Shown here: piece after piece, positions 35,249 to 51,617 of the stretch
Layout: each line of letters opens with the position of its first letter
Position numbering within the stretch: position 1 is the stretch's first letter
Assembly (NCBI GenBank): GCA_009702325.1
Contig: WLID01000007.1
Location: 1 to 64,000 of the forward strand
DNA length: 64,000 nt
Direction: 5' to 3'
DNA from: Actinomycetota bacterium
GTDB taxonomy: Bacteria; Actinomycetota; Thermoleophilia; Gaiellales; Gaiellaceae
Notes under the pieces: generated by a model
The model's input: only the letters and a program-made list of their open reading frames with translations
Told to the model about the DNA's origin: nothing
Databases searched by the model: none
Program-made: the position numbers and the translations under genes

Positions 35249-35884
35249 TTACGTGACGACGCGATAGACCTGGAACACCTCGGCGTAGTCGCGCGCGACG
35301 TTCGTTCCGTGCGTGCGTGCGAGGCTCCAGACGTACTCGGCGTTTGCGTACCGGCGGTGCATCTGCGAGGCGTACTTCTCGAGGGCGGCGACCTTCTTCT
35401 CGAGGTGGCGCTTCTCAAGGGCGATGTAGGCCTGGTAGGCGAAGTCGAAGTTGTTCCACGGGATCTCGTAGCCGAGGATCGTCGTGTGCTTGAAGGCCCG
35501 CAGACCTTCGGCCGCGATCGTTTGGTGATCCTGGTGCACGTCGTGATGCGACGGTTGAAACACGAGATCGGGCCTGAACTCCTGCGAGACCTTGATCAGG
35601 AGCTCGAGGATGTCCTGTCGAAACTCTGGGAAGCGGCGCACGTCGAAGTCGTGAACGGTGAGCTGCGACTCCGGGATCCCGAGCTCGCCGGTCGCCTCGC
35701 GCACTTCACGGGCAAGCGTGTCGGGTGGAAATCCGGGTGGGAGCGACCGTGTTGCGATCGAGAAGGCGATGTAGTGCACTTCCGCTCCCGCCTCGACCAG
35801 CCGAGCCATTGTTCCGCCGCAGCCGAACTCACCATCGTCGGTGTGCGGCGCAAGAACCAGCACGCGCTTTGCCCCCGAGATCAT
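35249..35884 (-). CDS. LmbE/PIG-L-family deacetylase
   Basis: This 211-residue zinc hydrolase has the family motif LAPHTDDGEFGCGG (H14 and D17 as zinc ligand and base). The second metal motif is SHHDVHQDH. Known members remove acetyl groups from N-acetylglucosaminyl compounds (GlcNAc-PI, mycothiol and bacillithiol precursors, teicoplanin). A thiol-precursor role is possible given the sulfur operon upstream. The immediate neighbours are an O-antigen-ligase-like protein and a secreted protein, so glycan deacetylation is at least as likely. ATG overlaps the upstream stop by 4 nt. Confidence 0.87.
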   Translation of the reverse strand: MISGAKRVLVLAPHTDDGEFGCGGTMARLVEAGAEVHYIAFSIATRSLPPGFPPDTLAREVREATGELGIPESQLTVHDFDVRRFPEFRQDILELLIKVSQEFRPDLVFQPSHHDVHQDHQTIAAEGLRAFKHTTILGYEIPWNNFDFAYQAYIALEKRHLEKKVAALEKYASQMHRRYANAEYVWSLARTHGTNVARDYAEVFQVYRVVT

Positions 35885-37362
35885 GCGCGTTCTTTCACGG
35901 CGACGGGAACAAGTGCGAGCAGGCTCCAGAAGATCGGGTCTTCAAAGAGGGAGTCGTAGAAGAGGCTGTGTGTGACCATCGCTAGCAAGGCTAGTCCGTA
36001 GACGAGCTGCGCGCGGCCGACACCGGTTGCGGGGTTCGCGTTCCGGTACGCGAGGCCGAACACCGTGACGAGCACCCAGGCAAACAACGCGAGCAGCGGG
36101 ATGCCACCTTCAGCCGCGATCGTGATTGGTGTGTCGTGTGACGCGGCGGCCTTTGGCTCCTTGCCTTTCAGGTGGGTGACCTCCGCGTACGCCCGCCGGA
36201 AGCCCCCGGTGCCGGCGCCGAACACCGGCCGGTCGAAAGCGACCTTGAGTCCGTTCGACACGAGCTTTGATCGCCCGCCGGTTGCGTGCGAGAGGCCGTG
36301 TGTACCTACGACCTTGTGCCGGACTGATGGGACGACCATCGATCCGAGCGCAACCACCAGTGCGATCACCGCAAGCGGAGCGACCGCTCGGCGCCCCCAC
36401 ACGACGATCAGCAGGCCGACGATCACAACGGCGAGCGCAACAAAGCTTGACTGTGAGAACGACGGCACGAGTCCGGCGAAGATGACACCGGTTGCCGAAG
36501 CTGCGACGAGGGACGTTCGGTTGCGCGAGAAAATGGTGAAGGCAATCGTCACCGTCAGGGCGACAACCAGGAACCGTCCGTAGATCGACGGGTCGTAGAA
36601 GACCGAGTTGACGCGGTAGAACCAGCTGCTCGGCGCGTAGGCGTTGTCGACGATCACCTTGGGGTTCCAAAACACGTTGCGCGTTGCGTACTCCCACAGC
36701 CCGATCGCACCGAAGAGCGCCGCCATCAATGCGATGAGCTTTGCGAGCCGAACGTTCCATCGCAGATGCCACGGTAGGCGGGCGAGCGTCACTGCCAACA
36801 CCCCAAACGGCAGCACGAAGAAGAGGAGGTAGATCGCACCTTGCCTTGGATCGACGGTCCACAGGAACGCGACACCCGTCCAGGCGATGAATGCGGCGAG
36901 CGGTGTTGAGAGTACGCCGAGCGGGGGCCCCTCGGGAGACGCAGGGAGCAGCACCGGCTCACCGTGAATCAGCTCAACGCTCTGCTCTTCGAACGCCTTC
37001 CAGGCGAGCACCAATGCGGCAGCGGCGACCACGAGATAGAGCGGCAACAGCAGGTTTGCAGTCGTGTGACCGACGCTGACGGGAATGCGGGCCGGCGCAC
37101 AGAGGAGAACCGACACAGCAAGCAACCAGGGGTGCCGCACATACGCCCATGCGAGGAGCGCAGCAGCAACTGCACCGAAGACAGCAGCCGCCGCATACGC
37201 ACGGTGATGGCCGGCTGGCGCGAGGTAGATCGCGAGCATGCCGGAGCCGAGCGCCCACGCCACAAGGCCGGCCACGCGTTCTGTTCGTCCAGCACGAAGG
37301 ATCATCAGCGCAACGCCGATCGCGCCGATCGCGCCGCCAACCTGGGCGAGTCCCGCGCTCAT
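35881..37362 (-). CDS. O-antigen ligase/polymerase-like membrane protein
   Basis: This 493-residue protein has about 12 hydrophobic segments. The Wzy_C/WaaL signature is in the large loop near residues 375-430: FDRPVFGAGTGGFRRAY, then AASHDTPITIAAEGGIPLLAL, with the conserved H and E-x-G. FSRNRTSLVAAS precedes it. It should join or polymerise glycans on the outer face of the membrane. It overlaps both neighbours by 4 nt (ATGA), forming a three-gene set with the Ig-like protein and the deacetylase. It is the second ligase-like protein of the window, so at least two glycan systems may be present. Confidence 0.8.
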   Translation of the reverse strand: MSAGLAQVGGAIGAIGVALMILRAGRTERVAGLVAWALGSGMLAIYLAPAGHHRAYAAAAVFGAVAAALLAWAYVRHPWLLAVSVLLCAPARIPVSVGHTTANLLLPLYLVVAAAALVLAWKAFEEQSVELIHGEPVLLPASPEGPPLGVLSTPLAAFIAWTGVAFLWTVDPRQGAIYLLFFVLPFGVLAVTLARLPWHLRWNVRLAKLIALMAALFGAIGLWEYATRNVFWNPKVIVDNAYAPSSWFYRVNSVFYDPSIYGRFLVVALTVTIAFTIFSRNRTSLVAASATGVIFAGLVPSFSQSSFVALAVVIVGLLIVVWGRRAVAPLAVIALVVALGSMVVPSVRHKVVGTHGLSHATGGRSKLVSNGLKVAFDRPVFGAGTGGFRRAYAEVTHLKGKEPKAAASHDTPITIAAEGGIPLLALFAWVLVTVFGLAYRNANPATGVGRAQLVYGLALLAMVTHSLFYDSLFEDPIFWSLLALVPVAVKERA

Positions 37363-38282
37363 CGGACAACCACCTCGGTACGTGCCGCGTGGGTGCCGAC
37401 CTTCACGTAGAGCGTGTAGGTGCCCGACGTGCTCGGTGCGGTGAATCGAAGCCGCCCGGTTGCGAAGCGGCCATGGACACCGGCAAAGAGCCAGCCCACA
37501 GACTTCGCGTCGGTCACGGCCTTCACCGTGAAGGTCTCGCCAGGGGCGACCTCAATGCGGGACGGCGAAACGGTTACGTACGCGACTCGCACCTCACCGG
37601 CAGGCACAGGCTTCGACCGATTCCCGGCCGTGTCCTCTGTCGCAACGAGGAGCCGGTACACACCGGCCTTTGCCGGACGGTCACGGAACCGGCCGTACCA
37701 AACAAGTCGCCCGCGCACCGGCTGGAAGCGTGTGTACTCCACGTCGCCGCGGCCAGCAACGCTCAGGATCGCGTGCCCAGCGCCACTCAGGCGGTACGTC
37801 ACATAGACCGCGGGATTCGTCAGATCGCCGTCGGGTGAGATCGTCGTTGGCGCGACCGCCACGACGGTCGGAACGGGCGCGATGGTGTCGAGCGCGATCG
37901 GGTTCGGAAGGCGAATCGTGTCGCGCGCGGCGGCCAGGTGAACGACAGGCTCGTAGGTGCCATCGGGCAGCGTGAGCCCGTCTGCACCGCGCCCACGGAA
38001 CACAACAGCGATCCGACCCGCCGGGTAGCGGCGATTGGAGGTGAGGGTCGCAATCCGTTCGCCGCCGCGCTCAATCCACACGCTCACCCGTTGCGCTTTG
38101 CGCAGGCGAAATTCGATGTGCGCGACGCGCGTCGGGCAACCGCACGTCGGCGAAAACGTCTTGTCAACGGCCGTGTCGTAGATCGGTGCCAGCTCGAGCT
38201 TCGCACCTTGCGTCAACGCAAACGCCCCCGCCGTTGCGGCGAGGAGCGCTACAAGCAGAACGGTCGAGGACAGCCGGGCCAC
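37359..38282 (-). CDS. Exported protein with Ig-like/FlgD-like beta domains
   Basis: This 307-residue protein begins with a hydrophobic segment (STVLLVALLAATAGAFALTQ) that is a signal peptide or anchor. CGCPTR lies just after it. Residues 55-115 (AHIEFRLRKAQRVSVWIERGG, then LPDGTYEPVV) match the pattern of FlgD/FlgT-type Ig-like modules. A second module is near 150-220 (GRLVWYGRFRDRPAKAGVYRLLVATED). A third, YVTVSPSRIEVAPGETFTVKAV, resembles bacterial Ig repeats. It is probably a surface scaffold. The GTG is 12 nt after the exporter stop upstream, so it may be co-transcribed with the sulfur operon. A TAGAAT, formed partly by that stop, lies 9 nt before it. Confidence 0.7.
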   Translation of the reverse strand: MARLSSTVLLVALLAATAGAFALTQGAKLELAPIYDTAVDKTFSPTCGCPTRVAHIEFRLRKAQRVSVWIERGGERIATLTSNRRYPAGRIAVVFRGRGADGLTLPDGTYEPVVHLAAARDTIRLPNPIALDTIAPVPTVVAVAPTTISPDGDLTNPAVYVTYRLSGAGHAILSVAGRGDVEYTRFQPVRGRLVWYGRFRDRPAKAGVYRLLVATEDTAGNRSKPVPAGEVRVAYVTVSPSRIEVAPGETFTVKAVTDAKSVGWLFAGVHGRFATGRLRFTAPSTSGTYTLYVKVGTHAARTEVVVR

Positions 38283-38294
38283 GGCCCGCGGATT

Positions 38295-39173
38295 CTACGC
38301 CTGGCTGGAGGAACTGACGACGGGTGGCCGCGGACGTCGCAGCCACTTGATCCCCCACACTGAAAGCGCGACGACTCCAACAATGAGCGCTCCGACGATG
38401 ATCCAACTCGCGTACGGGACAGCGACAAGCTTGATTCCCGAGAGAACAAGGATGACGCCGAACGCGACGCGAAGCTCCCGATCTGGCACACGCACCGACA
38501 GGTGCGAGCCAATCAACACACCGGGAATCGACCCCACAAGCAGCCATCGCATCGCGTGGGTGTCGACATCACCGTGTACGAGGTGTGACACGCCCGCGAC
38601 CCAGAGAAGCGCGGCCGCGTGAAACATGTCCGTCCCAACCATTCGACGCGACGTGATCGGATAGGCAAACAACATCGCGAGGCCGAAGAACGTCCCGGAC
38701 CCAACCGAAGTCATTCCGACAACGAAACCGCCGACGGCACCGATCGCGAACGCCACAATCTTGTCGCGTCGTGACAGCACCGCGAATGGGCGATCGGCGC
38801 GGGCTCGCACAAACGTCTTTGCAAGAAAGCCAAGACCGCCGACAACTAGCGCACCTCCGACAACCTTCTGCATCGTTGTCATGGATGAATCGCTGATCGC
38901 CCGTGCCGCCTCAACACCGAGCAACGACAGCGGGGCGGAGCCACACAGCATCCAGAGCCCGAGTCGAGCATGCACTGTGCCGAGCTGGCGGTGCCGGATC
39001 GCACCCAGGGTCTTGAAGATCGCGCCGTGCAGGATGTCGGTGCCGATTGCGACCTTCGCGTTGAAGTTGAAAAGCAGAATCAGGATCGGCGTCATCAGCG
39101 ACCCGCCGCCCATACCCGTCATCCCAACAAGCACCCCGACCAGTAGGCCGGCGAGAGAGAACTCCCAGGTCAC
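38295..39173 (-). CDS. TauE/SafE-family sulfite/organosulfonate exporter
   Basis: This 292-residue membrane protein has eight or so segments. The repeated family signature appears as GLLVGVLVGMTGMGGGSLMTPIL near the N-terminus and GGFVVGMTSVGSGTFFGLAM in the second half. Members export sulfite or sulfonates such as sulfoacetate. The GTG at 39173 overlaps the DUF4395 stop as GTGA, so it is a member of the sulfate-activation operon. This placement suggests it exports the end product, either excess sulfite or the sulfonate made by ComA. Confidence 0.85.
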   Translation of the reverse strand: MTWEFSLAGLLVGVLVGMTGMGGGSLMTPILILLFNFNAKVAIGTDILHGAIFKTLGAIRHRQLGTVHARLGLWMLCGSAPLSLLGVEAARAISDSSMTTMQKVVGGALVVGGLGFLAKTFVRARADRPFAVLSRRDKIVAFAIGAVGGFVVGMTSVGSGTFFGLAMLFAYPITSRRMVGTDMFHAAALLWVAGVSHLVHGDVDTHAMRWLLVGSIPGVLIGSHLSVRVPDRELRVAFGVILVLSGIKLVAVPYASWIIVGALIVGVVALSVWGIKWLRRPRPPVVSSSSQA

Positions 39174-39613
39174 GAGCGGGGTGCGCCCGGGATCGGACAC
39201 GAGACGAACGGGTGTCCACGGAGGCGGCAGCTCAGCTTGTACGCCTCGCATCCAGTGCAGAACCCAGTGATCGCCGCGAGCAGCGCGAGCGCCGCCACCA
39301 TGCCGCCAAAGACGATCCCTGCGGTCGTCCAGCCAACGGCGTAACAGAGCGACGCCACCGCGAGCACCGAGAAGCCGACCATGTTGGCGACGCGTGGCGG
39401 ACGCGAATCTTCAAGCGGGCCCTCACCAAATCGTGGCTGGATCAGCTGGAAGTACGTCACACACGGAATGCAGTAGCGACGCCCGAGCGTCAACCCCACG
39501 AGCAGCTGCAGGGCAAGGACGGCGAGGATCCCCCACCAACCTGTGATCAACGCGACAACCGAGAGCCCGCCGATCACTGTCTGGTTGAACCGAGGTGCGC
39601 GCGAGTCGATCAC
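39170..39613 (-). CDS. DUF4395 membrane protein with CxxC motifs
   Basis: This 147-residue protein has about four hydrophobic segments and fits DUF4395 in length and motifs. RFNQTVIGGL is at the N-terminus. Two cysteine pairs are present: RYCIPCVTYFQLIQPRFGEGPLED in the middle and TGFCTGCEAYKLSCRLRG at the end. I know no proven function. The cysteine pairs suggest thiol redox or sulfur transfer at the membrane. It is placed between cysN and the TauE-like exporter and may form part of the export machinery. It lies 41 nt after cysN. Confidence 0.8.
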   Translation of the reverse strand: MIDSRAPRFNQTVIGGLSVVALITGWWGILAVLALQLLVGLTLGRRYCIPCVTYFQLIQPRFGEGPLEDSRPPRVANMVGFSVLAVASLCYAVGWTTAGIVFGGMVAALALLAAITGFCTGCEAYKLSCRLRGHPFVSCPIPGAPRS

Positions 39614-39654
39614 GTTCAGATCGCGGTAGGGATGGGCGATTGGCGGACGCGAGC

Positions 39655-40947
39655 TTATGACGCCTCCAGGATCATTCCGGCGCCGACGGTCTCGTTCGTT
39701 GACTCGTCGATGAGGATGAATGCGCCCGTGGCGCGGTTCCGACTGAACGTGTCGACCGCAAGCGGTTCCGAAAGGCGGAGCTTCACCACTGCCAAGTCGT
39801 TCAGCTCCAGCTTGCTCGGCGACGGCTGATCGACGAGCGTCGTGATGTCGACGACGGACACGAGCTCGTCAACGATCGCGCGAACGTTCCGTGTCGTGTG
39901 CTTGATCCCCAACGTGGCCCGGCCTTCGAGTGGGCGCTCGCTCATCCAGCAGAGCTTGGCCGTCAGCTCGCGGGCGACGATCGGTGCACGGTCAGGGTCG
40001 GCGAGCATGTCGCCGCGACCGACATCCACATCGTCTTCGAGACGAATCGTGACCGACAATGGCGCCGCGACAGCCTCAAGCTCACCATCGAGCGTCTCGA
40101 CCGCTGCCACTCGGCTACGGCGACCCGACGGGAGCACGACAACTTCGTCGCCCGGCCGCCAAACGCCACCGGCGACCTGACCGGCATAGCCGCGGTAGTC
40201 GTGGAACTCGTCCGCCATCGGGCGGATCACCCACTGCACGGGGAACCGCCGATCTTCAAGGTTCTTGTCGGCCGAAATGTCGAGCGTCTCAAGATGCTCA
40301 AGCAGCGTTGGTCCTGTCCACCACGGCATGCCGTCACCTGCTTCGACGACGTTGTCGCCACGGAGCGCCGACATCGGTATCGCCCGCATGTCGTGCAGGC
40401 CGAGAGCATCGGCAAGCTCGCGCAGGTCGGCTTCGATCTCGGCGAATCGCTCCTGCGAGAAGTCGACGAGATCCATCTTGTTCACCGCCACAACGATGTG
40501 CGGGATCTCAAGCATCGCCGCGATGTAGCTATGGCGGCGGGTCTGCTCGACCACCCCGTTGCGGGCATCGACGAGGATCACCGCGACATGTGCCGTCGAG
40601 GCGCCCGTCACCATGTTGCGGGTGTACTGCACGTGACCCGGTGCGTCGGCGAGCTGGAACCGGCGACGCGGCGTCACAAACGAGCGGTAGGCCACATCGA
40701 TCGTGATGCCCTGCTCGCGCTCAGCGCGTAGACCATCAGTAAGCAGCGCCAGGTTGACGTACCCGTCGCCTCGGCGCTGGGAGGTCTCTTCGATCGCCTC
40801 CATCTGGTCGGCGAGGATCTGCTTGGTGTCGTAGAGCAGCCGCCCGATCAGGGTCGACTTGCCGTCATCGACAGAGCCAGCGGTAACGAGCCGCAGGAGC
40901 TCTGCCTGCATCATCTCCTCGGAGATCGGATCAGAAATAGCCGACAC
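39655..40947 (-). CDS. cysN: Sulfate adenylyltransferase subunit 1 (GTPase)
   Basis: This 430-residue GTPase drives ATP sulfurylase (ATP plus sulfate to APS) together with CysD. The G domain shows TAGSVDDGKSTLIG (P-loop, residues 23-35), GITIDVAYRSF (switch I), DAPGHVQYTRNM (101-112) and NKMD (156-159). Two beta-barrel domains follow, as in EF-Tu. There is no fused APS kinase; cysC is separate. The GTG at 40947 is chosen because the G domain follows closely. It overlaps cysD by 17 nt. A later pair of ATG codons (M12 and M13) is an alternative start. Confidence 0.95.
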   Translation of the reverse strand: MSAISDPISEEMMQAELLRLVTAGSVDDGKSTLIGRLLYDTKQILADQMEAIEETSQRRGDGYVNLALLTDGLRAEREQGITIDVAYRSFVTPRRRFQLADAPGHVQYTRNMVTGASTAHVAVILVDARNGVVEQTRRHSYIAAMLEIPHIVVAVNKMDLVDFSQERFAEIEADLRELADALGLHDMRAIPMSALRGDNVVEAGDGMPWWTGPTLLEHLETLDISADKNLEDRRFPVQWVIRPMADEFHDYRGYAGQVAGGVWRPGDEVVVLPSGRRSRVAAVETLDGELEAVAAPLSVTIRLEDDVDVGRGDMLADPDRAPIVARELTAKLCWMSERPLEGRATLGIKHTTRNVRAIVDELVSVVDITTLVDQPSPSKLELNDLAVVKLRLSEPLAVDTFSRNRATGAFILIDESTNETVGAGMILEAS

Positions 40948-41851
40948 GCTTGCGGTCCTCCATTGCTGCTTCGGAAACACGGTCATCGGCGCGCGTCTCG
41001 CCACGCTCGGTAATGCGGGTCGCTGCGATTTCGGCAACCACCTGGTCGATCGTCGATGCGGTCGACTCCACCCCACCCGTACAGGTCATGTCGCCCACGG
41101 TGCGGAACCGCACGTCGATCTCAAACGGATCTTCGCCAGGCAGCCGCTCCACGTAGGGCGAAACGGCGTAGAGCATGTTGTCGCGCCGAAAGACTTCGCG
41201 CTTGTGCGAGAAGTAGATCGAGGGAAGCTCAAGGTTCTCGCGTGCGACGTACTGCCACACGTCAAGCTCCGTCCAGTTCGAGATCGGGAACACACGAATC
41301 TGCTCGCCCTTGCGGATGCGGGCGTTGTAGAGGTTCCACAGCTCGGGCCGCTGTGCCCGCGGATTCCACTGGCCGAAGTCATCACGGAAGCTGAAGATCC
41401 GCTCCTTGGCGCGCGCCTTCTCTTCGTCGCGCCGCGCACCGCCCATGGCGGCGTCGAACTGATGTTCCTGGATTGCGTCAAGCAGGGTCACCGTCTGCAG
41501 CTGGTTGCGCGATGCGCGAGGCCCGGTCTGCTCTACCGCCCGGCCTTTGTCGATTGACTCCTGGACGCTCGCAACGATCAGCCGCTCGCCGAGCTCGGCG
41601 ACACGACGGTCTCGATACTCGACGACCTCAGCGAAGTTGTGGCCCGTGTCGACGTGCATGACCGGGAACGGGAACTTGCCTGGACGAAACGCCTTCTCGG
41701 CGAGACGGAGCAGCACGATCGAGTCCTTGCCGCCCGAGAAGAGCAGCACCGGGCGCTCACGTTCGGCCGCGATCTCCCGAATGATGTGGATCGCCTCAGC
41801 TTCAAGCTCGTCGAGGTGGGAGAGCACATGGGGTTGGGTCAGCGCGGTCAC
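40931..41851 (-). CDS. cysD: Sulfate adenylyltransferase subunit 2
   Basis: This 306-residue protein is the catalytic ATP pyrophosphatase subunit of ATP sulfurylase. The PP-loop is VLLFSGGKDSIVLLRLAEKAF. FPVMHVDTGHNFAEV, the GGARRDEEKARAKERIFSFRD region and FPISNWTELDVWQYV are all diagnostic. The C-terminus ends RKRVGYF. It forms the heterodimer with CysN to make adenosine 5'-phosphosulfate. It is translationally coupled to cysC upstream by a 4-nt overlap (41848-41851). Confidence 0.96.
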   Translation of the reverse strand: MTALTQPHVLSHLDELEAEAIHIIREIAAERERPVLLFSGGKDSIVLLRLAEKAFRPGKFPFPVMHVDTGHNFAEVVEYRDRRVAELGERLIVASVQESIDKGRAVEQTGPRASRNQLQTVTLLDAIQEHQFDAAMGGARRDEEKARAKERIFSFRDDFGQWNPRAQRPELWNLYNARIRKGEQIRVFPISNWTELDVWQYVARENLELPSIYFSHKREVFRRDNMLYAVSPYVERLPGEDPFEIDVRFRTVGDMTCTGGVESTASTIDQVVAEIAATRITERGETRADDRVSEAAMEDRKRVGYF

Positions 41852-42399
41852 GCAGATACCTCCGCAGGGTCGAGCAGGTCGTTTTCGACGAGGTAGTCAA
41901 GGACAATGGCCGCCGCCTCTTCCGGGGTGCGGCCTTCCGTCGTCAGGATGATCTCGGCGTTCTCAGGAGCTTCGTATGGATCGGAGACACCGGTAAATTC
42001 TGGGATCTCGCCCGCGAACGCCTTCGCGTAGAGCCCCTTCGGGTCGCGCCGTGCGCACTCCTCGATCGACGTCGCGACGTACACCTCGATGAACGGCACA
42101 TGCTCCTCGGCCAACGATCGGGCCTTTCGCCGGGCAGTAGCGTAGGGCGAGATGGCGGAGACAACGACGCCGCCGCCCGCACGTGCAACGCGCGACGCAA
42201 CCCAGCCGATGCGTTCGATGTTTAGGTCACGGTCTTCCTTCGAGAAGCCGAGGCCCTTCGACAGGTGCTCGCGCACGATGTCGCCGTCGAGACGCTCGAC
42301 CGTGACACCACGACCTTCGAGCTCGTTCGCAACGAGCCCCGCAACCGTCGACTTGCCCGCACCCGAAAGGCCGGTCAGCCACAACACAAATCCGCTCAC
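41848..42399 (-). CDS. cysC: Adenylylsulfate (APS) kinase
   Basis: This 183-residue P-loop kinase phosphorylates APS to PAPS. It has LWLTGLSGAGKST (residues 6-18), VERLDGDIVREHLSKGLGFSKEDRDLN (the APS-binding region with RDxN), VVSAISPYATAR and the lid-side DPKGLYAKAFAGEI. The length is normal for a free-standing CysC. The GTG start is set by overlap with the cysH stop (GTGA). Its presence beside an iron-sulfur, APS-type reductase is notable. PAPS may serve sulfotransferases rather than reduction. Confidence 0.95.
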   Translation of the reverse strand: MSGFVLWLTGLSGAGKSTVAGLVANELEGRGVTVERLDGDIVREHLSKGLGFSKEDRDLNIERIGWVASRVARAGGGVVVSAISPYATARRKARSLAEEHVPFIEVYVATSIEECARRDPKGLYAKAFAGEIPEFTGVSDPYEAPENAEIILTTEGRTPEEAAAIVLDYLVENDLLDPAEVSA

Positions 42400-43079
42400 G
42401 CGGTCACCTCCGCGGGCTCGTCGATATGAAGACCGCACTCGGTCTTGTCGAGGCCAGCCCAGCGGCCCTCGCGACCCTCGCCCGGATTCGTGCAATGGAT
42501 ACAGCCGATCGAGGCATACCCCTTGTCGTGCAGTTCGTTGTACGGCAGCTCACGTGCGCGGACGTACTCCCAGCAGCGAGCATCGTCCCAATCTGCAAGC
42601 GGATTCGCCTTCCAAAGCTCGTGCTGCTCATCCCAACCGACCTTCGGGGCGTTGGCGCGCGTCGGCGACTGATCGCGACGCAGACCCGTGATCCACCCGT
42701 CGAGATCAGCCAAGGCGCGGCCGAGCGGCTCAACCTTGCGGATCGCGCAACACAGCGTCGGATTCGACGCCCACAGCGCGTCGCCGTGCGTGGCGGTCTG
42801 GCGACCAAGCGACGGCCCTTCGAACACCTCAATCTTTGTCTTGTAGCGCTGCTCGACCTGACGCCACACCGTGTAGGTCTCAGGGAAGAGCAGGTGTGTG
42901 TCGAGAGCAAACACGCGGGCCTTCGGCTCAATCGCAAACACCATGTCGAGCAGAACCGCCTCTTCCTTCTGGAAGGAGCATGCGAGCGAGACGTTGCCGG
43001 GGAACGTTTCGAGGAACGCTGCGACGATCTCTTCAGCGGTCGCTGTCTCCCAGTCGCGCTCAGGAAGCGTTGCTGCCAA
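42396..43079 (-). CDS. cysH: Adenylylsulfate reductase, iron-sulfur type
   Basis: This 227-residue enzyme reduces APS (possibly PAPS) to sulfite with thioredoxin. The PP-loop-like region is VSLACSFQKEEAVLLDM. The [4Fe-4S] ligands are Cys110-Cys111 (NPTLCCAIRK) and Cys193/Cys196 (SIGCIHCTNPGEGREGRW). The catalytic cysteine is C215 in KTECGLH. The CC plus CxxC set marks the APS-reductase branch rather than the cluster-free PAPS reductases. The N-terminus overlaps comA by 20 nt. The sulfite it makes has no reductase in this operon but does have ComA as a neighbour. Confidence 0.94.
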   Translation of the reverse strand: MAATLPERDWETATAEEIVAAFLETFPGNVSLACSFQKEEAVLLDMVFAIEPKARVFALDTHLLFPETYTVWRQVEQRYKTKIEVFEGPSLGRQTATHGDALWASNPTLCCAIRKVEPLGRALADLDGWITGLRRDQSPTRANAPKVGWDEQHELWKANPLADWDDARCWEYVRARELPYNELHDKGYASIGCIHCTNPGEGREGRWAGLDKTECGLHIDEPAEVTA

Positions 43080-43833
43080 GGAGCACCTCCTTCAACGTGT
43101 CGCCACGAAGCCCAAGACGGAGTGTTTCGAGCGGAATCACCTCGTCGGGCGGAATGTTGCCGAGGTTGACCTCGGGTCCGAAATGCTTGATGAACCAGGC
43201 CTGGCTCGCCTTCGTGGGCGCCTCCCAGACGAGGTCATGAAGGTCGATCTCGCCGGCGATGTCGTCGACGAGATTCGTGCGCATCTCGCCTGACGAGCTG
43301 AAGATGCCGGCGGTACCGCCCTCGCGTGCCTCGGTGATCACCTTCCACGCACCTGCAGCCTTCTCTTCCTTGATCCACTGCACCCACTCCTCGGGCGCAA
43401 ACTCGACCGCGGAATCCTTCGAGCCAACCTCCGAGAGCACCGTGAAGTCACGTGCGAACTCTGCGATCAGCTCAAGCTTGCGCTCGCGCGGAATGTCGAC
43501 GGTGCCGTCCGAGATCTCAACGTGGGTAAGGCCAAGGTCAGTGAGCCACCGCTTGTAGTCGTCGAGCCGGTTCTTTGCATAGACCACCTCAAAGAACGTG
43601 CCGCCGACGACCACGCGCTTCTCCTTCAACACGTCGATCTTCGCTTTCAGGTTCGGGGTGACGTACGACGTCCCCCAGCCGAACTTGACGATGTCGATGT
43701 AGGCACCGCTCGTCTCGAGCACGTCGGTCCAGCCGCGCGGGCCAAGCCCCTTGTCGATCACATGGGTGAGGCCGGCGCTACGGGTGATGCCAAGGTCAAA
43801 CCCCGACACGGATGCCGAGTTAAAGCCGGGCAT
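43060..43833 (-). CDS. comA: Phosphosulfolactate synthase
   Basis: This 257-residue TIM-barrel protein should add sulfite to phosphoenolpyruvate, giving (R)-2-phospho-3-sulfolactate. Family motifs run through its whole length: THVIDKGLGPRGW, GAYIDIVKFGWGTSYVTP, VVGGTFFEVVYAKN, LTHVEISDGTVDIPRE, LSEVGSKDS and IFSSSGEMR. The C-terminus has WEAPTKASQAWFIKHFG and PLETLRLGLRGDTL. In methanogens this is the first step of coenzyme M synthesis. In Bacillus spores it leads to sulfolactate. It is translated between the fumarase beta-like subunit (14-nt overlap) and cysH (20-nt overlap), so sulfite from CysH is probably its substrate. Confidence 0.93.
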   Translation of the reverse strand: MPGFNSASVSGFDLGITRSAGLTHVIDKGLGPRGWTDVLETSGAYIDIVKFGWGTSYVTPNLKAKIDVLKEKRVVVGGTFFEVVYAKNRLDDYKRWLTDLGLTHVEISDGTVDIPRERKLELIAEFARDFTVLSEVGSKDSAVEFAPEEWVQWIKEEKAAGAWKVITEAREGGTAGIFSSSGEMRTNLVDDIAGEIDLHDLVWEAPTKASQAWFIKHFGPEVNLGNIPPDEVIPLETLRLGLRGDTLKEVLLGSNAS

Positions 43834-44407
43834 AGAGCTCCTTCAGCTTCTCGTGGGCTGCCGCCTGAACGTCGTGGTAGAGCGAGTTGCCGTGGGCGTC
43901 GATGCCGACGGTCAGCGGGCCGAAGTCCTTGACGCGGAACTTCCAAAGGCACTCCGGCATCAGCTCCTCCCACAGCACCTCTTCGATCTCCTCGATCTGT
44001 GTGGTTTCAAGCGCAGCAGCGCCACCGACGATCGCGAAATAGACCATGCCGAGCCGCTGCATCGGCTCGATCGCCTCGTCGGGAAAGCCACCCTTGCCGC
44101 AGATTGCACGAACGCCGTACTGCGCGCCAAGGCCCTCCGTAAAGCGCACCATGCGGGCGCTCGTCGTCGTGCCGATGCAGATCTTCTCGTACTTGCCCGG
44201 GCCGAGCTTGCGCACGTTCGGTGCGGTGTGCAGCAGGAACGCGCCCGAGAGATCCATCGGGGGAGGAACACCCTGGTCGAAGATCCGGATCTGCGTGCGG
44301 TCGCGGATACCGATGATGTGGCCCTGGACGGTGACCTCGTCGCCCGCGCGCAGCTTGAGGATCTCCTGCGGATCGGTGATCGGGAACGTGACGGTATGCG
44401 ATGCCAT
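43820..44407 (-). CDS. Class I fumarate hydratase/tartrate dehydratase-type beta subunit
   Basis: This 195-residue protein matches the C-terminal (beta) part of iron-sulfur hydro-lyases. It has LKLRAGDEVTVQGHIIGIRDRTQ, the GAFLLHTAPNVRK loop, GTTTSARM and AICGKGGFPDEAI. KDFGPLTVGIDAHGNSLYHDV is near the end. It pairs with the alpha subunit encoded 2 nt upstream. The complex normally interconverts malate and fumarate. Here it is embedded between comA and the alpha gene, so an analogous hydro-lyase reaction on sulfolactate, where a sulfonate replaces one carboxylate of malate, should be considered. That is inference. Confidence 0.87.
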   Translation of the reverse strand: MASHTVTFPITDPQEILKLRAGDEVTVQGHIIGIRDRTQIRIFDQGVPPPMDLSGAFLLHTAPNVRKLGPGKYEKICIGTTTSARMVRFTEGLGAQYGVRAICGKGGFPDEAIEPMQRLGMVYFAIVGGAAALETTQIEEIEEVLWEELMPECLWKFRVKDFGPLTVGIDAHGNSLYHDVQAAAHEKLKELYARL

Positions 44408-44409
44408 CT

Positions 44410-45306
44410 CTAGAACTCCCGGTCGTAGTCGATGGACCCGTCAGGGCCGATGTGGGCGCTCGCACGACGTGCGGCCCAGCACTGGTAGTTGACGGCAACA
44501 GGATTGAGCGTCATGTGGGTGTCGGCATGCTCAATGTGGCACTGCAGGACGGTGACATCGCCACCGAGCCCCATCGGGCCAATCCCGGTTTCGTTGAGGA
44601 GGCCATAGAGCTCGTCCTCAAGCTGAGCAACGAGCGGATCGCCGTTGCGCGTGCCGATCGGCCGCATGATCGCTTCCTTCGCGAGATGCATCGCGTAGTC
44701 GGCCGAACCACCGATGCCTACGCCGACGATCCCGGGCGGGCACGGCTTGCCACCCGCGCCGACGATCGATTCGAGCACGAACTGCTTGATGCCCTTCACG
44801 CCATCCGCAGGGATGCACATCTTCAGGAAGCTCATGTTCTCGGAACCTGATCCCTTGGGGACGCACTTAACGTCAAGGCCGTCCCAATCCGGAATGAACT
44901 CCCAGTGGACGATCGGCAGCCGGTAGCCGATGTTCGCACCGGTGTTCTCGCGCGTAATCGTGTGGACAGCATTCGAACGCAACGGATGGTCGATCGTCGC
45001 ACGCTCAGTGCCATCACGAAGGGCCTCGTAGATCCGGGCTGGATGGAGCGGGAAGTGCTCGCCCACATTGCAGTGGTACACCGCGATGCCAGTGTCTTGG
45101 CACACGAGATTCTTCTGCTCGTCGGCGATGCTGACATTCCGGTGGATGACTTCGAGGACGCGCTTGCCCGGGGTTGATGTCTCCCGATCGCGGGCGGCCG
45201 CAAGCGCGTCGCGCAGGTCCTGCGGAATGTCCTTCAAGGCCGAGACGTAGAGGTTGGCTGCTGCGTCTTGGACGGACTTCTGGAGATCTGTGGCGACTGT
45301 GCTCAT
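44410..45306 (-). CDS. Class I fumarate hydratase/tartrate dehydratase-type alpha subunit
   Basis: This 298-residue protein carries the [4Fe-4S] catalytic site. Likely ligands are Cys69 in NLVCQDTGIAVYH, Cys189 in GAGGKPCPPGIVGVGIGG, and one of Cys148 or Cys164 around KCVPKGSGSENMSFLKMC. The pattern is that of FumA N-terminal/TtdA proteins, not the class II fumarase (aspartase) superfamily. ATG 45306 overlaps the flavoprotein stop by 4 nt. With the beta subunit it forms an oxygen-sensitive hydro-lyase. Ordinary fumarase activity is the conservative reading. The sulfur context leaves room for a sulfonate analogue. Confidence 0.88.
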   Translation of the reverse strand: MSTVATDLQKSVQDAAANLYVSALKDIPQDLRDALAAARDRETSTPGKRVLEVIHRNVSIADEQKNLVCQDTGIAVYHCNVGEHFPLHPARIYEALRDGTERATIDHPLRSNAVHTITRENTGANIGYRLPIVHWEFIPDWDGLDVKCVPKGSGSENMSFLKMCIPADGVKGIKQFVLESIVGAGGKPCPPGIVGVGIGGSADYAMHLAKEAIMRPIGTRNGDPLVAQLEDELYGLLNETGIGPMGLGGDVTVLQCHIEHADTHMTLNPVAVNYQCWAARRASAHIGPDGSIDYDREF

Positions 45307-46499
45307 GCGATCGCTTTCCCGGCGGCCGCTCGACCTGACCGTCGACCGAAGACCACGCATTCGAGCAGGCTGTTGCCCATCATGCGGTTGCGCCCATGGG
45401 TGCCGCCGGCGATCTCACCGCAGGCGTAGAGCCCTTCGAGCGTGGTCTCAGCGTCGGGGTCAATAACAAGCCCGCCGTTTTGGTAATGGAGTACCGGGTA
45501 GGTGAGTAGCTTCTCCGTGAGGGGATCGATGCCTGCGCCACGGTATCGGCGCAGCATGTACGGCAAGGAACGCTCGGCGTCGCTCTCCGGAATACGCGTC
45601 GTATCGAGGTAGACCGCAGGGCGACCGTCGGGTGTCTGCACACCGCGGCCCGCTTCGACCTCGTCGAAGATCGCCTGACTGACTTGGTCGCGCGGGCCAA
45701 GCGAATCGGTGAACTCCTCGCCGTTCGCGTTGAGCAGCACTGCGCCGTACGCACGGGTCGTCTCGGGGATCGAGTACCCCTGCATCGTCGTTGGCCAAGC
45801 GCCTCCGTTTGGGTGGTACTGGAGGGCGTCAAGGTCGCGGGCCTCCGCGCCGAGCCCGATGACCATCTTCGTCACCTCACCCGTCGCGTTCGGATGGTTC
45901 GTCGAAAGCTCACCGCGCTCAAGCGCCTCGGCATAACATCGGCCGCCGGCAGCCAAGATCACGGCGCCCGCCTCGACAACGTGCTCGCCGCAGGTGGCGC
46001 GCCAGCCAGAGGCGATCGGGACAAGCTCGTGGAGTGGTGCGTCTTCGAAGGTGGTGCCGTCGGTTGCCGACCAGGCGTCACGCAGCGCCTTCGTCATTGC
46101 ATGACCGGTTCGGTCTCCGACCTGCAATAGACGTTGCCGGGAGGCGCCACCGCACCGCGCGACGCGGTAGCTTCCGTCGGCTTCACGATTGAACTCGACG
46201 CCGAGCTCTTCGAGCCAGGCGATCGCGGACGGCGCATCACCTGTGAGCGCCTCGACGAGCCGCAGGTCAGCGGTGTCGTGCGAGCTCTTTACGACGTCTG
46301 CTGCGTGCAGTTCGGGCGAGTCGTCGGGAGCGACCGCAGCCTGGATGCCGCCCTGGGCCTTCGACGAGTTGTTCGCCTGGATCGACGCCTTGGTGGCGAC
46401 ACCCGTGCGCGCTCCGGCGCGATGCGCGGAGACTGCGGCAGCGAGGCCTGCGGCCCCACTTCCGATGACGAGCACATCAAGGTTGACCGGCGCGGCCAT
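45303..46499 (-). CDS. Fumarate reductase/L-aspartate oxidase-like flavoprotein, short form
   Basis: This 398-residue FAD enzyme has the dinucleotide fold VLVIGSGAAGLAAA (9-22). Active-site residues of the SdhA/FrdA/NadB family are kept: R270 in SLGPRDQVSQAI, H338 in PVLHYQNGGL and R372 in THGRNRMMGNSLLE. The HPTG substrate loop reads QYHPNGG (T to N). The covalent-FAD histidine is absent (NNSSKAQGG at 43-51), so FAD is noncovalent, as in NadB. The protein ends after FGRRSGRAA, without the C-terminal helical domain (families usually 530-600 residues). It heads the sulfur operon, with TAGCCT 6 nt before the ATG. It may reduce or form a fumarate-like compound. Confidence 0.82.
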   Translation of the reverse strand: MAAPVNLDVLVIGSGAAGLAAAVSAHRAGARTGVATKASIQANNSSKAQGGIQAAVAPDDSPELHAADVVKSSHDTADLRLVEALTGDAPSAIAWLEELGVEFNREADGSYRVARCGGASRQRLLQVGDRTGHAMTKALRDAWSATDGTTFEDAPLHELVPIASGWRATCGEHVVEAGAVILAAGGRCYAEALERGELSTNHPNATGEVTKMVIGLGAEARDLDALQYHPNGGAWPTTMQGYSIPETTRAYGAVLLNANGEEFTDSLGPRDQVSQAIFDEVEAGRGVQTPDGRPAVYLDTTRIPESDAERSLPYMLRRYRGAGIDPLTEKLLTYPVLHYQNGGLVIDPDAETTLEGLYACGEIAGGTHGRNRMMGNSLLECVVFGRRSGRAAAGKAIA

Positions 46500-46626: not shown

Positions 46627-48861
46627 CTACGACGCCGGATCGACTGCTGGAGCAGACACCGCACCTGCGCCCTGCGGAGCGTCGTGCGTAGCGTGGAACT
46701 CGTGGCCGAATGATCCCTGCGGCAACCACTCAAGCCAGCGTGGGAGGTACCAGTTCCAATCCCCGAGCAGCTTCATCACCGACGGCAGCAGCACGCCGCG
46801 GACGATCGTCGCGTCGATCAAGATCGCTGCCGCGAGACCGAAGCCCATCTGCTTGATGTCGATGGTGTGGAGCGTCATGAAGATCCCAAACACGGCGACC
46901 ATGACCGCGGCGGCACTCGTCACCGTCGAAGCGGTGCCCTTGATGCCACGCGCCACCGCCTCGGGTGTCGGGACTCCCGCATCGACGAGCTCCTTGACTC
47001 GACTGAGGATGAACACGTGATAGTCCATCGAGAGTCCGAACAGGATCACGAAGAGGAAGAGCGGCAACCACGAGGCGATCGCCCCATTGGAGTGGAAGCC
47101 CAGGATCCCCTCCGCCCACGTGTGCTGGAACACGAGCACGAGCAGCCCGTATGCAGCCCCAACCGAGAGCAGGTTGAGCAGCACCGCCTTGATCGGAATC
47201 ACGATCGAGCGGAACGTGACGAGCAGCAGGATGAAGCAGAGTGCGAGCACGAAGCCGAACACCAGGGGCGCGTGTGACTTCATCTGATCGTTGAAGTCGT
47301 GCGTACCTGCCGTCTGACCTGTGACGGGTGCTTCAACGCCCGGCACCTTGCCGACCGTGGCGGGAATCACAACGTTGCGAAGCGTCTGAAGCGCGTCGAC
47401 CGAGATCTGATTCGAACCATCTCCCGCGAGCGCAATCGAAACACGCTCGACGTTGCCGGCCGGGTTGATCTCGCTGTGGATCGGCTCGGTCATCTTGCCG
47501 GTGGCGAGAGCCTGCTTCGTCATCTCGGTAATCGCAGCCTGCACTGCCGGTGTGCGCACGTCAGGCGCCGAGATCACCACTTCGGCCGGAGTCTGGGCAC
47601 CAGGGAATGCCGTCTGGATCTGCTCGTATGTCCGCACGATCGGCAGCGACTTCGGCAGATCGGTGAAGCTCGGAAGCTGCGTGTGCAGCGTGAGCGTGGG
47701 CAGTGCGAGTGCGAGGAGTGCACCGCCCGATGCAACCGCTGCGATCACCGGATGTGCGAGCACGCGATCCAGGACGAAGCCCCAGACCCGCGACGGCTTG
47801 TGCGAACGGCCGCCGAAGAACGGAATGCGTCCCTTGTTGATGCGGTCGCCGAGCTTCGACATGAGCGCCGGCAGGATCGAGAGTGATCCGATGAGCGCTA
47901 CGGCAACCATCAACATCGCACCCACGGCAATCGAGGTGAAGATCGCGTTGCCGGTGAAGAGCATTCCGGCCATGGCGATCAGCACCGTCGCGCCGGAGAT
48001 CAGCACGGCGTAGCCCGACGTCGCAGAGGTGCGGAGCAACGCGTCGTGCGAGCTCAGCCCCGACGATCGCTCTTCGCGCTCACGTCGGATGTAGAAGAGC
48101 GAATAGTCGACGCCAACGGCCATGCCGATCAGGAGGATCACCGACTGGGTTGCGTCCCCTGCTGGCACGAGGTGGCTCGCGATCGCTGAGAGCCCGACCG
48201 TTGCGAGCACGCCCGAGAATGCGAGCAGCACGGGCAGACCCGCGGCGACGAGCGCACCGAACGCGACGAGCAGGATCACGAGCGTGACGGGAAGCGAGGA
48301 GTACTCGGCCCGCTTGAAGTCGTCACCGATCGTCTTCGAGAGGATGTGGTTGGCACTCGCCTGTCCAAACTCGGCAACGACGAAGTCCTTGTGCGCGGCT
48401 TGCACCTGCGCGACCGCATCGAGCGTCGGCTGGATCTTGTCCATCGCCTTCGTCACGTCACCCGCAACATCGAACTGAACGAGGACGTCGCGGTTGGTCG
48501 CCGCGATCTGGCCGGCGTTGCCTGGGTCAAGCGGCGACCGAACATTCTCCATGTTGGGGAGCGCAGACACCGCCTTGACGACGTCGGCCACGACAACCTT
48601 GAACGCCGGATCGGAAACGGTCTTGGTTGTGGAAGAGACGAGCACGCTTTCGCCCGCGCGGCCACCGAATCCAGCCGACGCCATGATCTTCTCGGCCTTC
48701 TGGGTGTCGCCCGATGCCGTATCGGCGTCGGTGACCTTCTTCGTTCCGAGGGCGCCACCGATCATGGCGGCGCCGATGCAGAACACGATCCACACGACGA
48801 GCGCGCTCTTCCAATGGGCCGCGCTGATGCGGCCGGCCCGTGCCGCAAGGTTGGTATTCAC
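46627..48861 (-). CDS. MMPL/RND-family membrane exporter
   Basis: This 744-residue protein has the duplicated MMPL design: one N-terminal segment, a periplasmic domain, six segments, then the same again. The proton-relay Asp-Tyr pairs are present in both halves, in IGMAVGVDYSLFYIRREREE and FGLSMDYHVFILSRVKELV. PEAVARGIKGTASTVTSAAAVMVAV is a conserved loop. Such proteins export lipids, glycolipids or drugs. The start is GTG 48861 with AGAAGGG upstream. Two copies of AAGGCTGCG on the plus strand (48894 and 48938) lie in its 5' region. It is a single-gene unit ended by the strong hairpin at 46578. The substrate is unknown. Confidence 0.9.
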   Translation of the reverse strand: MNTNLAARAGRISAAHWKSALVVWIVFCIGAAMIGGALGTKKVTDADTASGDTQKAEKIMASAGFGGRAGESVLVSSTTKTVSDPAFKVVVADVVKAVSALPNMENVRSPLDPGNAGQIAATNRDVLVQFDVAGDVTKAMDKIQPTLDAVAQVQAAHKDFVVAEFGQASANHILSKTIGDDFKRAEYSSLPVTLVILLVAFGALVAAGLPVLLAFSGVLATVGLSAIASHLVPAGDATQSVILLIGMAVGVDYSLFYIRREREERSSGLSSHDALLRTSATSGYAVLISGATVLIAMAGMLFTGNAIFTSIAVGAMLMVAVALIGSLSILPALMSKLGDRINKGRIPFFGGRSHKPSRVWGFVLDRVLAHPVIAAVASGGALLALALPTLTLHTQLPSFTDLPKSLPIVRTYEQIQTAFPGAQTPAEVVISAPDVRTPAVQAAITEMTKQALATGKMTEPIHSEINPAGNVERVSIALAGDGSNQISVDALQTLRNVVIPATVGKVPGVEAPVTGQTAGTHDFNDQMKSHAPLVFGFVLALCFILLLVTFRSIVIPIKAVLLNLLSVGAAYGLLVLVFQHTWAEGILGFHSNGAIASWLPLFLFVILFGLSMDYHVFILSRVKELVDAGVPTPEAVARGIKGTASTVTSAAAVMVAVFGIFMTLHTIDIKQMGFGLAAAILIDATIVRGVLLPSVMKLLGDWNWYLPRWLEWLPQGSFGHEFHATHDAPQGAGAVSAPAVDPAS

Positions 48862-48990: not shown

Positions 48991-49887
48991 CTAGGCGTCG
49001 ACGCGGTCGCGTGCGAACGCGAGGAATTCGCGTGCCGCGCGTGACTCGGCCCGGCCGGTGGCCCGGACGAGGAACAGCTCTCTCTCGAGCTCAAGGCCGA
49101 CGACGGTCGCTTCCGACACAGCACCGCTCGCCAGGTCGTTGACAACCGACGCACGCGAGATGAATGTCACGCCGTGCCCCGCGCGCACCGCGGTGAGAAC
49201 CGACTCCTGCAGGCCAAGCTCGAGACGGACGTTCAGATCGCGCAGGCGGAGGCCCGCGGAGCGGAGCTCGTCTTCGATCATCTGCCGCACGCCGGCGCCT
49301 TCCTGCATCACGATCAAGTTCGCGGTGCGGAGCTCGTCGAGCGTTACCTCGCGTCCTGCAAACGGGTGCCCTGGCGGACAGGCAAGTACGACACGATCGT
49401 GGGCGAACGGTTCAAACGCTACGCCGCGATGCCGTCGGGCGGCGCCCACGACACCGAGCTCGAGATCGCGCTCGGCAACCTTCTCCACCACGGTCTGCGT
49501 GTCGAACACGAGTAGCGACACGTGCAGCAGTGGGTTGCGGTCGGCGAACTCCGGCAGCAGGTGGGCGAGCACGATGCCACCCGGCCCTGTTGATGCCCCG
49601 AGCTCGAACGTGCCTGCGAGCTCGCCCTCGCTCTCGTCGGCGACCTCGGCGATCACCTGCTCTTCCATCGCAAGCAGCCGCTGGGCGCCCCGGTAGAGAC
49701 GAAGACCTGCCTGCGTCGGCTCGACCCGACGCCCCGAACGATCGAGCAGCTGGGTACCAAGTCGCTTCTCAAGCGCCCGAACCTGCAGGCTCACCGCAGG
49801 CTGCGTCACCCCAAGCCGCTCGGCCGCCTGCGAAAAGCTGCGGCGTTCGACAACCTCACAGAATGCGGCCAGCTGCCTCGTATCCAT
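48991..49887 (-). CDS. LysR-family transcriptional regulator (CysL/CbbR-like)
   Basis: This 298-residue protein begins MDTRQLAAFCEVVERRSF with the winged helix-turn-helix SQAAERLGVTQPAVSLQVRALEKRLG (about residues 18-43). The effector domain reads GTFELGASTGPGGIVLAHLL and VVEKVAERDLELGVVGA, closest by eye to the CysL/CbbR group that senses metabolites of sulfur or carbon assimilation. ATG 49887 is chosen because the HTH starts at the usual distance. It diverges from the gene at 49976 and lies upstream of the MMPL and sulfur operons on the same strand. Control of either is possible but unproven. Confidence 0.88.
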   Translation of the reverse strand: MDTRQLAAFCEVVERRSFSQAAERLGVTQPAVSLQVRALEKRLGTQLLDRSGRRVEPTQAGLRLYRGAQRLLAMEEQVIAEVADESEGELAGTFELGASTGPGGIVLAHLLPEFADRNPLLHVSLLVFDTQTVVEKVAERDLELGVVGAARRHRGVAFEPFAHDRVVLACPPGHPFAGREVTLDELRTANLIVMQEGAGVRQMIEDELRSAGLRLRDLNVRLELGLQESVLTAVRAGHGVTFISRASVVNDLASGAVSEATVVGLELERELFLVRATGRAESRAAREFLAFARDRVDA

Positions 49888-49962
49888 AAGCGAAACATAT
49901 ACCGACAACAGCGTCAGGGCGGGGCGTCGCGGCCTGACTCCAAGGCTGTCACTCGCCGGGGA

Positions 49963-49968
49963 TAGACT
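49963..49968 (+). promoter_or_regulatory. Candidate -10 box (TAGACT), leaderless start
   Basis: TAGACT lies exactly 7 nt before the ATG at 49976, with no Shine-Dalgarno site. It lies in the 88-nt divergent gap with the LysR gene, so the LysR protein may bind here. Confidence 0.45.
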
Positions 49969-49975
49969 CGCCCGA

Positions 49976-50992: not shown

Positions 50993-51008
50993 GAAGCGAC
51001 GCGGCGCG

Positions 51009-51434
51009 TTAGACGAGCGCAGGCTCGAGCTGGATGTCGGCCCAGTCGCCGAGACGCTCCTCGCTCAACACCCACACGCCTGCGTGGCGACGAAGGGTGA
51101 CCGAACGCTCCTCGACCAGACAGATCGCTGGGGCGAGGCGGTAGCCGAGGTGAGCTGAGAGCACCCGTGCGCGCATCGTGATCGCCGCAAGATCCTTCGA
51201 GCTGTAGCCACCATCGCGGCATTCGAACAAGAAGCTGCCCCCAGGAGTGTGCACGACATGCCCGGCACGATCACCGTAGTGATCGACATCAAGCTCGACG
51301 TCAAGCCCGACGTAGGAAAGCTCGTTGAGCGCCTCACGCAACGTCCGCTCACCGCGTCCAGAGACACCCGAAGCGATACCTCGGAACATCTTCCCTGGCA
51401 GGGTTCGGCGTGGTGTGAGCTGGAGGGTAGCCAT
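51009..51434 (-). CDS. Small protein, possibly NERD/nuclease-like fold
   Basis: This 141-residue protein is not confidently recognised. The middle reads LDVELDVDHYGDRAGHVVHTPGGSFLFECRDGGYSS. Then comes a helix (KDLAAITMRARVLSAHLG) and a strand, APAICLVEERSVTLRRHAGVWVLS. An acidic residue, a glycine loop, then E-x-[KR] and a helix followed by a P/A-x-I-C-L-V strand resembles NERD-type restriction-endonuclease folds. Here the usual E-x-K is E-C-R. ATG 51434 has no Shine-Dalgarno site. An inner ATG (51389, with AGGGA upstream) is an alternative. A 58-codon frame with a strong site overlaps its start. Confidence 0.5.
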   Translation of the reverse strand: MATLQLTPRRTLPGKMFRGIASGVSGRGERTLREALNELSYVGLDVELDVDHYGDRAGHVVHTPGGSFLFECRDGGYSSKDLAAITMRARVLSAHLGYRLAPAICLVEERSVTLRRHAGVWVLSEERLGDWADIQLEPALV

Positions 51435-51525: not shown

Positions 51526-51601
51526 ACGGAATTCCTCCAATACCTGCCGGTCGCCAAATGCCCTGCATACAGGCGCACATCCACACACTGGTGGTGTCAG
51601 C

Positions 51602-51617
51602 GGTGCGAACACGCACC
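51602..51617 (-). terminator. Small hairpin downstream of the CapD-like gene
   Basis: GGTGCG and CGCACC pair over 6 bp with a 4-nt loop, 18 nt after the stop at 51635. No U-tract follows. It is the only structure seen in the 109-nt gap between 51526 and 51634. Confidence 0.3.

Follow-up and report, generated by a model that had tools for sequence, protein, structure and literature searches.

A 64,000-nucleotide (nt) stretch of DNA from an Actinomycetota bacterium of the family Gaiellaceae, class Thermoleophilia (assembly GCA_009702325.1, contig WLID01000007.1), called the window below, contains an operon at 38295-46499 in which genes for sulfate activation and reduction follow those for a fumarate-reductase-like flavoprotein, a class I fumarase-like pair (FumA and FumB, together FumAB) and ComA. 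In our estimation, there is about an even chance that this operon encodes a sulfate-to-sulfonate route parallel to the conversion of malate through fumarate to succinate, with 3-sulfopropionate as the predicted product. In this route, each reaction and substrate of which is predicted for the organism from its genes, sulfate would be activated and reduced to sulfite by CysDN, CysC and CysH, and ComA would join the sulfite to phosphoenolpyruvate, giving phosphosulfolactate. A ComB-family phosphatase encoded elsewhere in the genome would then yield sulfolactate, the FumAB-like enzyme would dehydrate it to sulfoacrylate and the flavoprotein would reduce sulfoacrylate to 3-sulfopropionate. By our own derivation, (R)-sulfolactate matches (S)-malate in its spatial arrangement, as the replacement of the carboxymethyl group by a sulfomethyl group alters only the naming priority; a fumarase-like and then a fumarate-reductase-like enzyme are therefore chemically natural next steps. 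The original prediction had left the product open as sulfolactate or a derivative of it, and the presence of the flavoprotein and fumarase-like genes would narrow it to sulfoacrylate and then 3-sulfopropionate.

The ten minus-strand open reading frames (ORFs) overlap or nearly touch, and all of them match the Pfam or NCBIfam families after which they are named (Table 1), in agreement with the gene run first described. With the longest-ORF starts, the gaps from the flavoprotein gene to tauE are -58, 2, -14, -20, -100, -4, -146, 41 and -82 nt, the fourth being the 20-nt overlap of comA and cysH that had already been noted. The ORF starts of fumA, cysC, cysN and tauE are probably placed too far upstream because the family domains begin 30-60 residues in. 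With a fumA start at 45306, the overlap with the flavoprotein gene is 4 nt, and later starts shrink the large overlaps.

The conservation of the comA neighbourhood was analysed in 60 neighbourhoods from 59 Thermoleophilia genomes and in the best 80 of at least 586 named loci. After the removal of identical comA sequences, 117 loci remained, of which 77 were well flanked (flanks of more than 4.2 kb on the upstream and 5 kb on the downstream side). Homologues of the neighbouring genes were identified by tblastn (E 1e-8) with the window proteins and with Sat, LysR and other proteins from relatives, a threshold that distant forms may escape. FumA and FumB were encoded directly upstream of comA in 37 of the 77 well-flanked distinct loci. 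Within these 37 loci, the flavoprotein gene was present in 33, same-strand downstream cysH in 26, a same-strand downstream ATP sulfurylase gene (cysN or sat) in 26 and same-strand tauE in 33. Of the whole set of 77, 18 loci had none of these genes and 15 the flavoprotein gene only, the remainder being mixtures. Chance can be excluded as the origin of the gene run because it is conserved over many genomes of Thermoleophilia. The link between comA and the cys genes, which might have been incidental, is not so in the fumAB-bearing lineages, as the 26 loci with cysH indicate, but other lineages have no cys genes near comA.

ComA itself was encoded in 212 of the 399 Thermoleophilia genomes. The operon proteins abound in public data: at least 7999 of 8000 FumB candidates, at least 7997 of 7998 flavoprotein candidates and at least 7997 of 8000 ComA candidates scored over the threshold, numbers which include more distant family members. 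The close homologues carry the names Gaiellaceae or Thermoleophilia. Nearly all of the best 80 of at least 586 named loci come from metagenome assemblies, and none of them represents a named cultured strain that has the whole operon. Four loci titled Bifidobacterium breve (L160, L165, L173 and L184) and one titled Burkholderiales (L128) carry Thermoleophilia-like comA operons; the names look wrong or the bins mixed.

Behind comA, cysH and cysC are followed by the genes for either CysDN or Sat, two unrelated enzymes that catalyse the same reaction. The comparison of CysH sequences, based on 23 CysDN loci and 34 Sat loci with duplicates included, showed that CysH beside CysDN is 62-95% identical to that of the window in 20 of the 23 loci and 42-44% identical in the other three, while CysH beside Sat is 42-48% identical in all 34. 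The occurrence of two non-homologous sulfate modules in the same place would be the trace expected of selection for sulfite next to ComA. Of the 30 well-flanked loci having CysH, 26 also retain CysC; in L048, L139, L148 and L149 a CysN-CysD-CysH block is encoded by the opposite strand. As sulfate activation costs ATP, synthesis is a more plausible function than breakdown. A third version of the module was observed in L054, L134 and L118, where CysD and CysN, 47-51% identical to those of the window, are followed by a second CysC-like segment. One protein, P0249, looked like a ComA-CysH fusion; its ComA part ends and its CysH part starts in the middle of the domain, which suggests an assembly or deletion join, and it was not used.

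The genome to which the window belongs (1.91 Mb, 13 contigs, 93% complete) encodes one ComA. The absence of a sulfite reductase, as originally stated, holds for the operon but not for the genome, which has a single NIR_SIR gene away from the operon (C1:588254-589378), with its best scores for the ferredoxin-nitrite reductase and NirA families, below every cut-off. It is adjoined by a second cysH (C1:587508-588038), whose product has the iron-sulfur motifs and is 40% identical to the CysH of the operon. Given this neighbour, the NIR_SIR gene may encode an assimilatory sulfite reductase, and assimilation therefore seems to have a CysH of its own. Together with the two non-homologous modules behind comA, this separate cysH favours the earlier proposal that ComA is the probable destination of the sulfite produced by the operon.

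The FumAB-like pair differs from the ordinary class I fumarases. The PF05681 scores in the 399 genomes fell into two classes, 44 sequences at 348-390 bits and 75 at 259-317 bits, fragments being left out. Where the positions of both genes were listed, the low-scoring, operon-type fumA shared its strand with comA and was no more than 2 kb away from it in 43 of 47 cases, and the high-scoring, ordinary type in none of eight (none of nine with G358, in which the genes lie on different contigs). Moreover, ComA was present in 79 of the 83 genomes with operon-type FumA, compared with the 212 of 399 overall. The FumA of the window keeps the three cluster cysteine motifs VCQDTG, PCPPG and QCWA of a class I alpha subunit, and the pair shares these as well as TTSARM and GKGG with two-subunit class I fumarases such as 7xky. 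The beta subunit, however, has RDxTQ where these enzymes have ARDxAH. RDxTQ was found in all 31 operon-type FumB sequences (the window and 30 loci) and in the 120 closest homologues among the matches listed, from about 8000 scored candidates. RDxAH was present in 29 of the 30 best-scoring loci of ordinary class I fumarases in Thermoleophilia, no motif being found in L200, and in the solved class I fumarases compared. Three near-complete genomes of the same family (G009, G021 and G033) had no PF05681 gene, and the tricarboxylic acid cycle of the family therefore seems not to need one. We predict that the FumAB-like pair is a sulfolactate dehydratase.

The flavoprotein was encoded in 124 of the 399 genomes, 120 of which also had ComA; the four without it (G205, G231, G285 and G337) are all 56-84% complete. 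Its AlphaFold model (mean predicted local distance difference test score, pLDDT, of 92.5) has a confident fumarate-reductase fold, with E. coli FrdA as the best Foldseek match, and is about equally close to urocanate reductase, soluble fumarate reductase and L-aspartate oxidase. In the alignment, FrdA residues H232, E245, R248, R287, H355 and R390 are kept as H229, E246, R249, R270, H338 and R372, all invariant in 23 aligned sequences: the catalytic arginine, the proton-path glutamate and arginine and the carboxylate-binding two histidines and arginine of fumarate reductase are all in place. According to the accessible text of PMC5773532, the threonine T244 of FrdA binds fumarate and twists it, and R287 acts as the proton donor. 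The flavoprotein has proline (P245) in place of this threonine, as do 40 of 40 sequences and the 120 closest homologues among the matches listed, and Asn44 where FrdA has the histidine of the covalent flavin. It thus shares the fold with soluble fumarate reductases, urocanate reductase and L-aspartate oxidase and the catalytic residues with E. coli FrdA but is distinguished by the proline, Asn44 and a short C-terminus. Urocanate reductase offers a precedent for keeping one carboxylate side and altering the other, as described in the available part of PMC7921117. The pattern of kept and changed residues is consistent with the flavoprotein being a sulfoacrylate reductase, which is our prediction. 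An SdhA-type protein is also encoded in the genome.

ComA scored 278 bits against PF02679 (cut-off 25.2) but remained below the curated equivalog TIGR03849 (arch_ComA, 241.7 vs. 280), and it matched the solved chains 1u83 (the closest, E 1.1e-60) and 1qwg; it is predicted to be a phosphosulfolactate synthase. Chain 1u83, which we take to be B. subtilis YitD, belongs to the Bacillus ComA homologue, and the ComA family also matches in B. subtilis. The Bacillus homologue has a role in spore sulfolactate, and to our knowledge it has no link to FumAB or the flavoprotein. The search of the genome for coenzyme M genes gave a divided result: two ComB-family genes (PF04029) lie elsewhere, over the Pfam cut-off and below the curated NCBIfam cut-offs, while ComC (PF02615) had no match in the 93% complete genome. 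The ComB family was present in 69 of the 83 genomes with operon-type FumA.

As far as the accessible text of PMC5695019 goes, archaeal ComA forms (R)-phosphosulfolactate from sulfite and phosphoenolpyruvate, ComB converts it to (R)-sulfolactate, and an archaeal ComC enzyme acts on both (R)-sulfolactate and (S)-malate. The proposed route would share the ComA step with the archaeal coenzyme M pathway (ComA-ComB-ComC-ComDE), and ComB-family genes are present in this genome. Unlike that pathway, the organism has a FumAB-like dehydratase and a flavoprotein instead of ComC, and the sulfate reduction genes are located in the operon. The Xcb coenzyme M pathway of Xanthobacter reportedly also begins with a ComA homologue and goes via sulfoacrylate, as the proposed route would. 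However, the Xcb lyases are members of the aspartase/class II fumarase superfamily, to which the class I iron-sulfur enzyme predicted here as the dehydratase is unrelated, and the next Xcb enzyme is, by its NCBIfam name, a 3-sulfopropionylcysteine synthase, whose place would here be taken by the predicted reductase. In the accessible open-access literature, 3-sulfopropionate is described mainly in connection with the breakdown of sulfoquinovose or dihydroxypropanesulfonate, and no enzyme that reduces sulfoacrylate, dehydrates sulfolactate or makes sulfopropionate was found there; the available part of PMC12068725 contains no text on sulfoacrylate or phosphosulfolactate. Nor was a description of the operon found in the same literature, in line with the earlier remark that no described pathway with this gene set was known. 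Its parts belong to known families and their combination appears to be new.

The operon is surrounded by a surface-glycan locus (window positions 1844-37362 and 49976-54591) with four DegT aminotransferases, two epimerase-type enzymes, glycosyltransferases, a flippase, two O-antigen ligases and ATP-grasp ligases with LAL_C2 domains. The minus-strand run extends past tauE to 35249 with three more cell-surface genes: a 12-nt gap separates tauE from a gene for an immunoglobulin-like (Ig-like) protein, which overlaps the Wzy_C gene by 4 nt, as does the Wzy_C gene the PIG-L gene. The Ig-like protein recurred in 35 of the best 80 of at least 586 named comA loci. As judged by a simple gene caller, which overlooks some genes, it was present near comA in 12 of 23 loci of lineage f1, 6 of 6 of f2, 3 of 6 of f3 and 7 of 12 of f10, and in none of the seven, five and one loci of f5, f6 and f11, respectively. 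In PDB, it had generic Ig matches only, with template modelling (TM) scores of about 0.2-0.3. The O-antigen ligase also recurs near comA. By gene calling, 13 of 23 f1 loci and 6 of 7 f5 loci have a LysR gene no further than 7.5 kb from comA. Either TauE or the MMPL transporter may be the exporter of the product, and the neighbouring surface-glycan genes are suggestive of attachment to a surface glycan as another use of it. Beyond the glycan locus, a radical S-adenosylmethionine (SAM) gene with a CofH_C domain was observed at 55229-56335 within a group of likely cofactor genes (55229-60398).

Table 1. Genes of the operon and its immediate surroundings, in window coordinates.
Feature	Position	Strand	Basis
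LysR-family regulator, upstream of the run	48991..49998	-	Pfam HTH_1 and LysR_substrate
MMPL-family transporter, upstream of the flavoprotein gene with a gap of 127 nt; operon membership uncertain	46627..48861	-	Pfam MMPL
Soluble fumarate-reductase-like flavoprotein, predicted sulfoacrylate reductase	45303..46499	-	FAD_binding_2
Class I fumarase-like alpha subunit (FumA), predicted sulfolactate dehydratase alpha; true start probably 45306	44410..45360	-	PF05681 (Fumerase), 302 bits
Class I fumarase-like beta subunit (FumB), RDxTQ, predicted sulfolactate dehydratase beta	43820..44407	-	PF05683 (Fumerase_C)
ComA, predicted phosphosulfolactate synthase	43060..43833	-	PF02679, 278 bits
CysH, adenosine 5'-phosphosulfate (APS)/3'-phosphoadenosine 5'-phosphosulfate (PAPS) reductase	42396..43079	-	PAPS_reduct; iron-sulfur cysteine motifs CCAIRK and GCIHCT
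CysC, APS kinase; true start probably further into the ORF	41848..42495	-	PF01583 from residue 35
CysD, sulfate adenylyltransferase small subunit	40931..41851	-	TIGR02039, 435 bits
CysN, sulfate adenylyltransferase large subunit; true start probably further into the ORF	39655..41076	-	TIGR02034, 549 bits from residue 61
DUF4395 protein	39170..39613	-	PF14340
TauE/SafE permease	38295..39251	-	PF01925, 146.6 bits; member of the family
Predicted membrane-anchored protein with a single helix followed by Ig-like beta domains	37359..38282	-	No Pfam match; AlphaFold pLDDT 89
O-antigen ligase/polymerase (Wzy_C)	35881..37362	-	PF04932
PIG-L family deacetylase	35249..35884	-	PF02585

Several observations weigh against the proposed route to 3-sulfopropionate. 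The CysD of the operon is the only one in the genome, and no homomeric ATP sulfurylase (Sat) was found there, which tempers the view that the sulfite is meant for ComA. The occurrence of the ComB family does not depend on that of ComA (107 of 133 with it, 26 without). Relatives that lack FumAB, the flavoprotein or ComB are unexplained by the route: the 33 f5 genomes with flavoprotein and ComA have no ComB (0 of 33) and no PF05681 match, f2 has flavoprotein and ComA but not FumAB, and no f6 genome has the flavoprotein, though some carry FumAB beside comA. Within the genus of the window, G295 (L036 / L125) lacks FumAB between the flavoprotein and comA, the rest being intact, and L150 and L152 lack both FumAB and the flavoprotein. 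In f10, comA stands alone beside surface-glycan genes. The f5 pattern, the named loci of which include Miltoncostaeales, could be accounted for by a candidate phosphate-eliminating lyase of the Xcb type. A gene of the histidine phosphatase family was observed behind comA in five f6 loci (L069, L070, L071, L078 and L079) and in L190; that of f6 could encode an alternative phosphosulfolactate phosphatase.

The same gaps in f2, f5 and f6 speak for a C3 sulfonate that ends at sulfolactate or sulfoacrylate and is attached to a glycan or exported, the flavoprotein and FumAB performing lineage-specific side reactions. So does f10, where comA lies among surface-glycan genes and neither FumAB nor the flavoprotein is nearby, and so do the three surface genes that follow tauE unbroken in the window. 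However, f1 and f3 strongly keep the flavoprotein-FumA-FumB-ComA order, and both enzymes have family-specific changes, for which reason we regard such an early end point as unlikely, though a serious candidate. Somewhat speculatively, and with a rather low probability, many Thermoleophilia might make 3-sulfopropionate by a re-tuned fumarase and fumarate reductase and hang this strong acid on a surface glycan in the manner of succinylation elsewhere; the glycan machinery would then be the oldest partner of ComA in the class, and the sulfate module would have been recruited at least twice. The glycan locus, which makes up much of the window, together with the retention of CysC beside CysH, would also suit a cys module that supplies PAPS for the sulfation of surface glycans, the comA neighbourhood being secondary. 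This is very improbable, as no sulfotransferase family was detected among the 40 Pfam-scanned window proteins (a subset of the ORFs) and CysH is retained together with CysC, its gene overlapping comA.

The flavoprotein and FumAB could also be ordinary C4 enzymes, that is L-aspartate oxidase or fumarate reductase with fumarase, and the rest of the operon could serve sulfur assimilation, with the removal of sulfite by ComA and TauE. The flavoprotein does match NadB, but at 251.6 bits it is far under the cut-off of 452.75, and the 398-amino-acid protein covers only positions 3-389 of 489; its association with ComA is unexpected for the synthesis of nicotinamide adenine dinucleotide, and the motifs of both FumB and the flavoprotein are changed. 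We therefore consider this explanation quite unlikely. Coenzyme M biosynthesis of the archaeal or bacterial type, to which the presence of ComA and the ComB family would point, is given hardly any credence. In addition to the missing ComC, XcbC and XcbD lyases were not detected: the genome has three Lyase_1 genes, one of the FumC/AspA type (below both cut-offs), one PurB and one ArgH, and they score at best 118 for XcbC (cut-off 575) and 284 for XcbD (cut-off 600). The score cut-offs, the lack of ComC and Xcb lyases and the changed motifs thus lowered the NadB, coenzyme M and plain-fumarase readings.

Sulfonates that are built from sulfite via ComA include coenzyme M and the sulfolactate of Bacillus spores. 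Soil carbon-bonded sulfur is a pool of poorly explained biological origin. If the proposed route to 3-sulfopropionate is true, it would represent a new microbial way of making sulfonates and would give a testable function to enzymes labelled in databases as 'L(+)-tartrate dehydratase' and 'L-aspartate oxidase'. The sulfate-to-sulfopropionate operon of these widespread, mostly uncultured bacteria would then be a source of the carbon-bonded sulfur of soils.

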